Assembly (NCBI GenBank): GCA_021802205.1
Contig: JAKAAT010000001.1
Location: 1-36,985 of the forward strand
Length of the DNA stretch: 36,985 bases
DNA from: Thermoplasmata archaeon
GTDB lineage: Archaea; Thermoplasmatota; Thermoplasmata; Thermoplasmatales; Thermoplasmataceae
Direction of reading: 5' to 3'
In this document: positions 5,201 through 18,517 of the stretch, in pieces
Layout: the number at the start of each line of letters is the position of its first letter
How positions within the stretch are numbered: the first letter of the stretch is position 1
Notes under the pieces: model-generated
Databases searched by the model: none
Told to the model about the DNA's origin: nothing
What the model saw: only the letters and a program-made list of their open reading frames with translations
Translations under genes and position numbers: made by a program

Positions 5201-6655
5201 TCATTTTCCACCGCTCTGGTTTGATTCGGCGACAATGACTTTCTTGCTCTTTATTCCTGTGATAAATGACATTATTGCCCCGATAATTAAAACTATCATG
5301 GAAACCAGAAGTGCAGAGTGGAGACCTATCACAAATTTAGATGATACATTCCCCTCCAACTTATCCAAGCCCAGAAACACTTCGAATGTAACATATCTGG
5401 GCACCGTAGACGCTGCTACTGTTATTGCAATTACATAGCTGAGAAGAGTGCCTATATTCGTAAGTGTTCTCAGAAGCCCGGATGAAGAACCATAGAGCTC
5501 CCTGGGAGAATTTGACATGACAGAACTTGTATTCGAGGGCCAGAACATTGAACCTCCAAGTCCCGTAATTATGGATCCGACTATGACCAGATATATTGGG
5601 CTAGTAACACCAAGAAACAGATAAACAACTATACCCATGGCCATGATTAAAATTCCGGTGCCTGCAACTATGCCAGGAGGAACTTTATCTGATAATCTGC
5701 CCATTTTAGGGGATAGCAGGCTTGATAAGAGATATCCTGGCACTAGTATCAGTGATGCATCAAATGGAGAGAAGCCTCTTACACCCTGCAAATACATAAT
5801 TAAAATAAATAGCACCGAAAGGAATCCTATTGCCTGATGTGTCGCTGCCATCAGCGATAGCGATAACTTTCTGTTTTTAAATGCTCTTGTGTCTATAACA
5901 GGGCTTTTAGACCTTTTTTCTATAATGGCGAATGGGATTAGAATTATAAGTCCCGCTATGACCATAGAGATATTTGTTAAATTGGCACCCAGAGAAGCAA
6001 CCTCCACAGCACCGTATGATATTAATCCCAGTATAGCAATTATGAGTGCTGTGCCGGTGTAATCTATTTTTACTGTGGATTTTCTGTTGTCTTTGATATA
6101 CTTTTCAGCCATGTAAAATCCTATTAAGCCTATGGGCACATTTATGTAAAATATGTACCTCCATCCTATGAAAGTAGTAATAACGCCGCCAAGAATTATT
6201 CCTAAAACTCCGCCTATGCTCCATCCCATACTGGTAATTCCGAAGGCTCTGCCCCTTTCGCCGGCAGTAAAGTAGTCTGCTATGATTGCATTGCTGTTTG
6301 CCTGAAGAAGTACTGCACCGAAACCCTGCACGATTCTTGATAGAATAAGAAAATCCACATTTGGAGATGCACCGGCCATTCCAGAACCCACTATAAATAC
6401 TATGAATCCTGCATTGAAAATTCTTCCTCGTCCGAAAATATCTCCCAGTTTCCCCATCTGTGTTGTTAAAGTGGCGAGCACCAGAAGATATACGAGGATT
6501 ACCCATATGGTATCCAGAAATGGTGCCTTTAAATCCACCGTCATTGTTGGCAGTGCCAGAAGCACTATTGTTGTGTCTATTGCAGACATCAGCATTCCGA
6601 TTAATACACTGATTAAAATAAAAGTACGTTTTCTATCTTCCGATTGCTCATTCAT
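5201..6655 (-). CDS. MFS transporter, DHA2 (EmrB/QacA-like) family
   Basis: About 14 hydrophobic segments; N-terminal SAIDTTIVLLALPTM and GKLGDIFGRGRIF motif. Confidence 0.88.
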   Translation of the reverse strand: MNEQSEDRKRTFILISVLIGMLMSAIDTTIVLLALPTMTVDLKAPFLDTIWVILVYLLVLATLTTQMGKLGDIFGRGRIFNAGFIVFIVGSGMAGASPNVDFLILSRIVQGFGAVLLQANSNAIIADYFTAGERGRAFGITSMGWSIGGVLGIILGGVITTFIGWRYIFYINVPIGLIGFYMAEKYIKDNRKSTVKIDYTGTALIIAILGLISYGAVEVASLGANLTNISMVIAGLIILIPFAIIEKRSKSPVIDTRAFKNRKLSLSLMAATHQAIGFLSVLFILIMYLQGVRGFSPFDASLILVPGYLLSSLLSPKMGRLSDKVPPGIVAGTGILIMAMGIVVYLFLGVTSPIYLVIVGSIITGLGGSMFWPSNTSSVMSNSPRELYGSSSGLLRTLTNIGTLLSYVIAITVAASTVPRYVTFEVFLGLDKLEGNVSSKFVIGLHSALLVSMIVLIIGAIMSFITGIKSKKVIVAESNQSGGK

Positions 6656-15289: not shown

Positions 15290-15568
15290 GTGTTTTTTCC
15301 ATTACCAAAAATGTTAATTGAATATGCGGTAGCGTCGATAAATGCAATGCTGGGCAGGATAGATGATATAGCCATATCAGTATCTGCCATATTGATTACA
15401 ATTTTATGGATTCCGGTTGCCCTGAGTTTTTTCAGTACTGATGAAAATAAAAAATATATGGCCAGGGAAAAATTAAAAAACGCAACCATCGGAACAGTGA
15501 TATATATTCTTGCAGTCAGTGGCGTTTTATTCACAGTGTTTAACTATGTTGTAACAGGGAAACTATGA
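15290..15568 (+). CDS. VirB2/T4SS-pilin-like (CedA1-like) small membrane protein
   Basis: 92 aa, GTG start; two hydrophobic helices separated by a polar basic linker (TDENKKYMAREKLKNATIGTVIYIL), the layout of TrbC/VirB2-type pilins. Confidence 0.6.
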   Translation: MFFPLPKMLIEYAVASINAMLGRIDDIAISVSAILITILWIPVALSFFSTDENKKYMAREKLKNATIGTVIYILAVSGVLFTVFNYVVTGKL

Positions 15569-16491
15569 ATTATGGGTCTATTTTTGGAGAAATTATAAAG
15601 GTATTTACTAAAATTGCAAGGTCATCGGTAATATTGCTCTGGCATCTAACTGTAAACTATGGTCTGAATCCCAAATATTCTTACACAGAATTTATAAATG
15701 CTAACCCTGCGTTTCTATCATTCTACAATTACCTGTTCAACAGCATTTATTCGGATATTATTGTCACAGTCATTTTATTATCTGCTGTTACTACACTGGC
15801 TTATAACTCTTTCATCAAACCTTATCCGGCTACAAGACTTGTAATAAAAATAATGATTTCATCTGTCCTATTTTTTGAATCCTATAAGATATCCATCCTA
15901 TTTTTAAAAATATCCCTTGTGTTTTATAATAGCATTTACACTTTGAAACCTGACTGGTATACTATTGGTATATCCGGGCTTTCCCCGGATAATCAGATCA
16001 TAGCAGTACTGCTCAATGGCTCATATATGCTTGCCATAATTCTTCTATTCGGTGTCATGATAATAAGGCAGGCACTCATATTTTTCTTTATCCTTTTCAT
16101 TCCTGTAGCTTCAATACTTTTTATATTTCCTGGAAGTGAAAAACACGTGTTTAAATTTTACAGAATATTTTTTGAAATTTCTTTCTTTCCATTCTTTTCC
16201 ATAATTATACTATATTTACTGGGCATGTTTAACAATCCATTCCTTGATATAGGCTTAATATATGTGGCAGCAACTGCACCACTGTTTTTTGTTACAGAAA
16301 TATACAGATATTTCCAGGGCAGTTTTAATTTTCTTGAATCTGACGCAATAATGTCTGATATATCATCAAACATGGGAGGATTTAGCCCTGAAAACATATT
16401 GAGCGGGGATTCGGATAGTATTATGTCTTTACCAAATTTAGCAGAGGAACTGATACCTGAAATAGTGAACAGTAAGGGTGAGATAAATTAA
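15565..16491 (+). CDS. Polytopic membrane protein, VirB6/TrbL/CedA-like
   Basis: 308 aa with at least five hydrophobic segments; overlaps pilin-like ORF by 4 nt and precedes a VirB4-like ATPase; FFFILFIPVASILFIFPGSEKHVFKFYRIFFEISFFPFFSIIILYLL. Confidence 0.62.
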   Translation: MNYGSIFGEIIKVFTKIARSSVILLWHLTVNYGLNPKYSYTEFINANPAFLSFYNYLFNSIYSDIIVTVILLSAVTTLAYNSFIKPYPATRLVIKIMISSVLFFESYKISILFLKISLVFYNSIYTLKPDWYTIGISGLSPDNQIIAVLLNGSYMLAIILLFGVMIIRQALIFFFILFIPVASILFIFPGSEKHVFKFYRIFFEISFFPFFSIIILYLLGMFNNPFLDIGLIYVAATAPLFFVTEIYRYFQGSFNFLESDAIMSDISSNMGGFSPENILSGDSDSIMSLPNLAEELIPEIVNSKGEIN

Positions 16492-18517
16492 GATTCCTGT
16501 CAATGTATATAATTTCAAATCCTATATTTACAATATATCGCTGGATAAATTTATAATAATTATAGCAGGTATATCTATTGTAGCGATTACATCAACTGAG
16601 TACTTGCCTGCTGCAATAATAACAGGAATTGTATATTTCATTATTATGGCAATGCTGAAGTTCGAACCAGGAAATATATATTCGTTGAGGAAACTATACT
16701 TTAAAAGTTCAGAATCTGATTTAAAATTTGTCAGAAATGGTGAATTATACGGTATTTCTGGCAAATTTATTTTCACTGTACTAGAGATAGAAAATAAAGA
16801 ATTGTACACTGACAGTGCAAAGGGAATACAGATGATGACAATAGCCCGGATGCTTGATAAAATTACATGCAATGTAACTGTACAAACAAAGGCAGAAAAA
16901 ATCGGAGATGCCTTCTACTATAGAACATTTATACTTCTGAAATCAAACAGGAGCAGTTTTAACCATGCAGTTGATATTATAAGGGAGAATATTCCATCTT
17001 TTACATCCGGAAGTTCATCGAAAGCGTGGTTAGTGGATGATGAAAATTTGATTTCATCTCTGTTTTATAACAGGGTAAGTACAAATTCAAATTACTTTAA
17101 AAAAGATGAATTATATGGAACATATTTTGATGTTTTGGACACAGAGTATTCTTCAGATTTTCTTTACCAGTCCATCATCGAAAGGCTCGGGTTCGTGATC
17201 GAGTTAAATATGGAACTGGAGCCCATCAGAGAAAAAGATATTTTTCTTAGGAGGTTGATGGCCTCCAGAAAGGCAGAATTATCATACACAAAGTCCGGGC
17301 ACTTTGCCTCTCTTCTAAAGAAGCAGATCTCCTCGCTAGAATATCTGGGAAAGCAGGATAAACTTTGTAATGTATTTATGCGTTTCTCGGTTTTATCAGA
17401 ACACCCGGCACATCTAAGGGAATACAGTGATAGGTTCAGAAAAACCATGGAATCCACAGGTTTTAAAATGAGGGGATTCCATTTTTTCAATAGGGCATCC
17501 TTTAATCCTTTGGAAACCGCAACTCAGAGTAAAAAATATATGATGGATCCGGAGGCTATTTCCTCCATTTTTCCATGTGGTTTCACTACCATGCCACGTA
17601 ATTCTGGGGAACCTCTGGGTATTAATTTAATAACCGGTAAAAAAGCCTACTTAAATCTGTTCCATGGATCATCCTATAATGTTGCTATAACAGGCGAAAC
17701 AGGGTCCGGAAAATCATACTTTACAGATATGTTACTCGATAAGTTCAGGGATTCCTCATCGGTATTTATTATAGATCCACTGAAGGAATATAGCGGTAAC
17801 CAGATTATAGAACTGGGATCTGGAGAATATCCAGATTTTACAATTGGTGCTGGATTAATCAGGAATATTATTCCTGAGATAATGGGAAATATCAGTGAAA
17901 TACCTCCGGGCAAAATCAGACAAATGATGGAGACCCTTGAGAAAAGCCATAATAATATTATTTTCAGTGAACTTATTTCAGAAATTATGAAATATGACAA
18001 GGGTGGATCAGTTAATGAAAATTTTTTGACCAGAAAATTGTTCAAGATACCTGTTAAAGTTTATGGAAGCAGATGTGTGTTTCGCTTTGATTATGGCGAC
18101 ACCCGTTTCAGGGAACTTTTTTTCAGACTTGCCCTCAGTTTAACCATTTCTCTGGCTGAGAACAGGGATGGCAATAAAATAGTGGTTATAGATGAAAGCC
18201 ATCTTTTTATTAAGGAAACGAAAAATGCTGAAATGATCGATATGCTTGCAAGAAACGGTAGGCATAATAAAATATCACTGATCACCGTTACCCAGAACGT
18301 CAATGACTATTATTTTAACAGTTATGCTGAATCCATTCTGAGAAATTCTATATATTATTTTATATTCAGGCAGCATGAAAAAATTAAGGATAAACTATTC
18401 CTGGGTTACACCATTGACCCGGTATCCCTTGCAGGAGGAAGCAATTTCAATTATTCAGAATGTTTTTATTCAACAGGCACGCTTATAAGAAAATTGAAAA
18501 TATCTGAAAATAAATAA
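16487..18517 (+). CDS. PrgI/VirB3-VirB4-type T4SS ATPase (CedB/HerA-VirB4 superfamily)
   Basis: Walker A AITGETGSGKSYFTDML, Walker B KIVVIDESHLFIK, GRHNKISLITVTQNVND. In-frame extension upstream of track start 16604 (TTG) reads IKIPVNVYNFKSYIYNISLDKFIIIIAGISIVAITSTEY-LPAAIITGIVYFIIMAML, a PrgI-like 2-TM domain; in-frame stop at 16484-16486, so the start is ATT 16487 or a nearby codon. Confidence 0.8.
   Translation: MKIPVNVYNFKSYIYNISLDKFIIIIAGISIVAITSTEYLPAAIITGIVYFIIMAMLKFEPGNIYSLRKLYFKSSESDLKFVRNGELYGISGKFIFTVLEIENKELYTDSAKGIQMMTIARMLDKITCNVTVQTKAEKIGDAFYYRTFILLKSNRSSFNHAVDIIRENIPSFTSGSSSKAWLVDDENLISSLFYNRVSTNSNYFKKDELYGTYFDVLDTEYSSDFLYQSIIERLGFVIELNMELEPIREKDIFLRRLMASRKAELSYTKSGHFASLLKKQISSLEYLGKQDKLCNVFMRFSVLSEHPAHLREYSDRFRKTMESTGFKMRGFHFFNRASFNPLETATQSKKYMMDPEAISSIFPCGFTTMPRNSGEPLGINLITGKKAYLNLFHGSSYNVAITGETGSGKSYFTDMLLDKFRDSSSVFIIDPLKEYSGNQIIELGSGEYPDFTIGAGLIRNIIPEIMGNISEIPPGKIRQMMETLEKSHNNIIFSELISEIMKYDKGGSVNENFLTRKLFKIPVKVYGSRCVFRFDYGDTRFRELFFRLALSLTISLAENRDGNKIVVIDESHLFIKETKNAEMIDMLARNGRHNKISLITVTQNVNDYYFNSYAESILRNSIYYFIFRQHEKIKDKLFLGYTIDPVSLAGGSNFNYSECFYSTGTLIRKLKISENK

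Follow-up and report, generated by a model that had tools for sequence, protein, structure and literature searches.

The window, a 36,985-nt stretch of DNA, comes from a genome of the acidophilic archaeal genus Ferroplasma; loci from the same genus include that of F. acidarmanus Fer1 (NC_021592). Three genes follow one another on its forward strand, in an order (pilin, VirB6, VirB4) that is conserved among relatives. The first (15311–15568) encodes an 85-residue protein resembling T4SS pilins of the VirB2/CedA1/TedC kind, with matches to the Pfam T4SS_pilin profile that fall below the cut-off both in the window (E = 2e-4) and in an orthologue (E = 1.8e-5). The mechanical ORF list begins this gene at GTG 15290 (15290–15568), but its start is most likely ATG 15311, which corresponds to the initial Met of all of the orthologues. 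The pilin-like stop and the start of the second gene share an ATGA, a 4-nt overlap at 15565–15568. The second gene (15565–16491, with its stop TAA at 16489–16491) encodes a polytopic membrane protein of 308 residues that we call VirB6/CedA-like from its position in the conserved gene order and its helices only, since Pfam and fold searches, the latter with a predicted model of pLDDT 58, returned no match. The third, VirB4-like gene spans 16487–18517, and contains 676 codons when counted from an ATT at 16487–16489, and 637 when counted from a TTG at 16604. The arrangement is best explained as a small chromosomal pilin-VirB6-VirB4 operon, with the VirB4-like gene last, that is a T4SS relative of Ced/Ted-like type.

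The product of the third gene, a DNA-transfer motor ATPase of the conjugation type, is a member of the VirB4 superfamily without a named equivalog. It carries a Walker A motif (GETGSGK, residues 403–409) and a Walker B motif (VVIDE, residues 566–570), scores 44.5 bits against Pfam AAA_10 (cut-off 27.5) and also exceeds the cut-off for DUF87. A profile comparison with the PDB matches the VirB4 structure 4ag5 (E = 1.3e-12), and a Foldseek search using a predicted model of low overall confidence (pLDDT 65) returns R388 TrwK/VirB4 as the best match (5.7e-19). None of the curated NCBIfam cut-offs is reached, the best score being 74 bits against 567 for TIGR02746, while an orthologue scores 24.9 against 700 for the CedB family NF041017.

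Ahead of the VirB4 domain lies an N-terminal segment (16487–16699) with two predicted helices, residues 19–37 and 40–56, a fusion that fits the two-helix layout of VirB3-type proteins. The first-pass annotation had described this segment as PrgI/VirB3-like, and the two halves of that description fare differently. In one genome (G006) the best match to VirB3 (PF05101) is at this very site, at E = 2.2e-4 and 22.4 bits against a cut-off of 23.9, and in another (G007) the best match is again the N-terminal hairpin, below threshold at E = 0.0025. Eight of the 13 N-terminal members match weakly, the window's own sequence being absent among the matches listed. PrgI (PF12666) finds no match at this site in ten genomes and only one of the 13 members at E = 0.065; we therefore rejected it as the N-terminal family for want of profile support. 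A search of the N-terminal profile against the PDB gave only a chance match to a potassium channel. The hairpin thus looks weakly VirB3-like, its scores lying below the Pfam gathering score for membership of the VirB3 family. In other genera of the family (L013, L017, L023, L025, L029 and L040) VirB4 is split, so that an ORF of 229–282 residues (about 230–285 codons) comprising the VirB3-like hairpin and the N-terminal part precedes an ATPase ORF of 461–542 residues (about 460–540 codons). One of these loci, L040, retains the complete order of pilin, VirB6, VirB3-like block and VirB4 core.

Most of this segment precedes any canonical start codon. On re-reading the sequence we find, as the first-pass annotation had it, that the VirB4-like frame is interrupted by a TAA at 16484–16486, which closes all upstream starts in the window, and is then open from the ATT at 16487–16489 to its stop at 18515–18517, with no ATG, GTG or TTG ahead of the IPVN residues. 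The first such codon is TTG 16604, codon 40, which had been placed inside the second membrane helix; it does fall at the second predicted helix, but at its start. The ATT overlaps the VirB6-like stop as previously noted: the two codons have one base in common and together form ATTAA (16487–16491), so that the genes overlap by 5 nt.

Several lines of evidence indicate that translation already covers the codons ahead of TTG 16604. Comparison of the window with six orthologues gives pS = 0.76 and pN = 0.21 over codons 2–39 (pN/pS = 0.27), the signature of purifying selection, and the pattern is inverted in the ten in-frame codons that precede the ATT (pN/pS = 2.6). All 13 aligned N-terminal sequences keep P4 and N6 unchanged, and a profile of the segment finds it in 32 of 77 genomes of the family. 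The hidden N-terminal membrane segment that had been proposed from the window's letters is therefore real.

The six congeners, which are 50–63% identical to the window protein, align with it from residue 1, and each has ATT at codon 1. This codon is thus ATT in all seven Ferroplasma genomes, including F. acidarmanus Fer1, although its conservation is not independent proof of a start because it is partly fixed by the VirB6-like codons (NAT followed by TAA or TAG). In Fer1 the gene is on the minus strand of NC_021592, with codon 1 at 375955, and its product would begin (M)KIPSNVYNF. The overlap with the VirB6-like stop is 5 nt in every genome, reading ATTAA in six and ATTAG in one (L006/L034). 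The expectation that orthologues might show ATG at the MKIPV position is borne out in the outgroups and not in the congeners: L018 and L042 have ATG at exactly the same codon, in L042 as a classic ATGA overlap. A second Ferroplasma subclade (L008/L010/L011) has an ATG five codons upstream that is served by its own GGAG. From this distribution, ATG at codon 1 is probably the ancestral state, and Ferroplasma would have changed it to ATT, giving ATTAA.

A Shine-Dalgarno sequence, GGTGA (16477–16481), precedes the ATT by 5 nt and is still within the 3' end of the VirB6-like gene. The longer GGTGAG had been reported at this place, and it is present, but at 16477–16482 rather than 16478–16483, which leaves a spacer of 4 nt. 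Using the 16S rRNA 3' end of Ferroplasma genomes, GGATCACCTCC, we calculated duplex energies for the possible starts. The duplex at the ATT ranges from -8.2 to -12.5 kcal/mol across the seven genomes (-8.5 in the window); among background codons the mean is -3.2, and 3.2% reach -8 or lower. Spacing tells the same story: around long ORFs of Fer1, GGTGA stands 4, 5 or 6 nt before an ATG 23, 24 and 35 times, against expectations of 5.6, 0.3 and 0, and it is enriched at these distances ahead of GTG and TTG starts too. The virB4 ATT is within this preferred range, and GGTG precedes it in all seven genomes. The Gly codon of the VirB6-like gene that bears the Shine-Dalgarno sequence is GGT in seven of seven, compared with 21% GGT among Gly codons. 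The GGTGA-N5-ATT motif is by itself unremarkable, with 1.9 expected per window; the case exceeds chance through the motif's place at the gene junction, together with the evidence from orthologues and purifying selection.

Taken together, the orthologues, the Shine-Dalgarno pairing and the open frame make the ATT the best-supported start, as the first-pass annotation had suggested. We strongly infer that this VirB4-like gene lacks every normal start codon and that its translation initiates at AUU. The account as a whole, a pilin-VirB6-VirB4 operon with AUU initiation at 16487 placed by the Shine-Dalgarno sequence, is in our judgement likely to be right. Ribosomes ending the VirB6-like gene at UAA 16489–16491, or 30S subunits recruited there, would be held by GGUGA 16477–16481, whose pairing with the 16S tail would bring the AUU into the P site, with the stop codon beginning two bases further on. 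Initiator Met-tRNA would then start at AUU to yield Met-KIPVNVYNF..., with termination at the VirB6-like gene and initiation of virB4 probably coupled. The use of AUU, the coupling, the placing of Met at that codon and any influence on dosage, such as the low abundance that the first-pass annotation proposed, are what we infer from the sequences; our literature search found no start-site proteomics for Ferroplasma and no ribosome data on this start. In E. coli, AUU is a weak start codon, at about 0.3% of ATG (cited in PMC10666635).

The best-surviving alternative, which we consider improbable, is that the genus starts at a GTG three codons upstream (16478–16480 in the window; MI/V-x-IKIP...), and that a base change, real or artefactual, has put a TAA after it in the window. 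This GTG, 9 nt before the ATT, is in frame in all seven genomes, where it is the only rival start common to them, and remains open in six; L005/L007 have a further in-frame ATG at -12. The closing TAA is known from one MAG assembly and accompanies a change of the last VirB6-like codon from CAT to AAT. Nevertheless, the GTG has no Shine-Dalgarno sequence in any genome (-0.7 to -3.9 kcal/mol, near the background mean), and the window protein remains under purifying selection. The presence of the GTG is itself readily explained as a by-product of the Shine-Dalgarno sequence, because GGTGA followed by five bases automatically places a GTG in the start frame.

A programmed +1 frameshift at (C/A)AU-UAA, aided by the Shine-Dalgarno-like GGTGA, would instead yield a VirB6-VirB4 fusion. 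The layout, in which such an element shortly precedes a stop codon and the downstream frame is at +1, does resemble bacterial prfB, in which a Shine-Dalgarno-like element helps a programmed +1 frameshift at a stop codon. We regard a frameshift here as very unlikely, as re-pairing of the P-site tRNA from CAU or AAU to AUU is poor in both cases, the slip codon varies between species and the outgroups retain separate genes with ATG starts. Finally, TTG 16604 is the first canonical start codon, but it is hardly credible that translation begins there or at a later codon and leaves the upstream frame untranslated. Such a start would discard the conserved N-terminus together with the first membrane helix despite the purifying selection on codons 2–39; the TTG has no Shine-Dalgarno sequence (-1.5 kcal/mol), and L002, L003 and L006 have no TTG at the equivalent position.

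Initiation at AUU, which we prefer to these alternatives, has a natural bacterial precedent in E. coli infC, which also starts with AUU; autoregulation by IF3 is a feature of infC. To our knowledge, non-NTG start codons are almost undocumented in archaea. Gene callers are blind to them, so that proteins are clipped or misplaced; at virB4, recognizing the ATT gives a T4SS-type ATPase back its membrane anchor, which the rules of gene finding would leave out. An ATT start has been inferred for the Asgard (Kariarchaeaceae) tubulin gene atubA, likewise from aligned proteins and an RBS plausibly placed ahead of it (PMC13394414). That report concerns one gene, whereas the virB4 start is genus-wide, sits at a stop-start overlap and has been scored against competing starts.

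The overlap also bears comparison with termination-reinitiation in Haloferax and E. coli, where stop and start overlap and the Shine-Dalgarno sequence is inside the upstream gene (PMC10666635). The overlaps there are typically -4 and -1 with NTG starts, as opposed to the -5 overlap with ATT at virB4, where coupling is probable. NTG starts cannot make -5 overlaps, and ATT (ATTGA, ATTAG, ATTAA) was named as a possible exception (PMC10666635). Among the canonical starts of Fer1, 109 have a 4-nt overlap with an upstream stop, 28 have a 1-nt overlap and none has one of 5 nt. The phenomena at virB4 are thus known ones, and what is unusual is to find them genus-wide in an archaeon and with a 5-nt overlap. 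With a cultured member, F. acidarmanus, a Shine-Dalgarno sequence at preferred spacing and an overlap held impossible for NTG, virB4 offers a direct way to test AUU initiation in archaea and how it is linked to termination.

The operon resembles the Ced/Ted DNA-import systems, which combine a VirB2-like pilin, a polytopic VirB6/CedA-like protein and a VirB4-like ATPase (PMC9905601). It differs in being euryarchaeal and in having a VirB4 with a fused VirB3-like hairpin, and we do not claim Ced membership because the CedB score (24.9 against 700 bits) falls well short of its threshold and neither profile nor fold searches matched the VirB6-like protein. virB3 typically adjoins virB4 (PMC12857230). 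R388, whose TrwK is the best PDB fold match of the Ferroplasma ATPase, keeps TrwM/VirB3 and TrwK/VirB4 as separate genes; the two are fused in Ferroplasma and separate in some archaea of the same family.

A census of the complete Fer1 genome and 800 kb of G006, in which 664 ORF pairs were compared and gene junctions scanned, yielded few other candidates for non-canonical starts. Where a frame was conserved ahead of its first start codon, this was mostly antisense or untranslated conservation, and the convincing cases left after filtering were virB4 and cobM. Two candidates, g9_1134 and g6_496, were rejected as they look like decayed genes. In ten Ferroplasma genomes (L186–L195; Fer1 1290760–1291548, minus strand), cobM/cbiF has no ATG, GTG or TTG before the conserved motif GAGPG(D/N)PEL, and GGTGATAAAACG-ATA, overlapping the stop of the upstream gene, is invariant. 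This suggests a start at AUA, or at an ACG three bases earlier, or alternatively a -1 slip on the A-run. A different ATT seems to be the start of the VirB4 homologue of L035, from a sister genus; it precedes the Ferroplasma site by six codons, and there GGAGGTG TTTACG ATT (5983–6003) gives a duplex of -13.5 kcal/mol and no canonical start has a Shine-Dalgarno sequence. Because AUU in virB4, an upstream AUU in the sister genus and AUA (or ACG) in cobM recur, we tentatively raise the possibility of relaxed start selection across the lineage, in which AUH would be tolerated at tight overlaps with a strong GGTGA, possibly as an aIF1-sensitive control of dosage.

Three further Fer1 ORFs are recorded here as observations. 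A transporter ORF (L117:7255–8559) has a conserved N-terminus ahead of any start codon where a congener has ATG, and is probably decayed. A membrane-protein ORF (L101:17358–18587, minus strand) is conserved upstream of its first ATG, and the ATG of a congener corresponds to Fer1 codons around an ATT. A thiolase-like ORF (L171:777–1964; Fer1 1700777–1701964) has a very strong Shine-Dalgarno sequence (GAGGTGAT) without a canonical start nearby, and a CTG that forms CTGA with the upstream stop is a possible CUG start.
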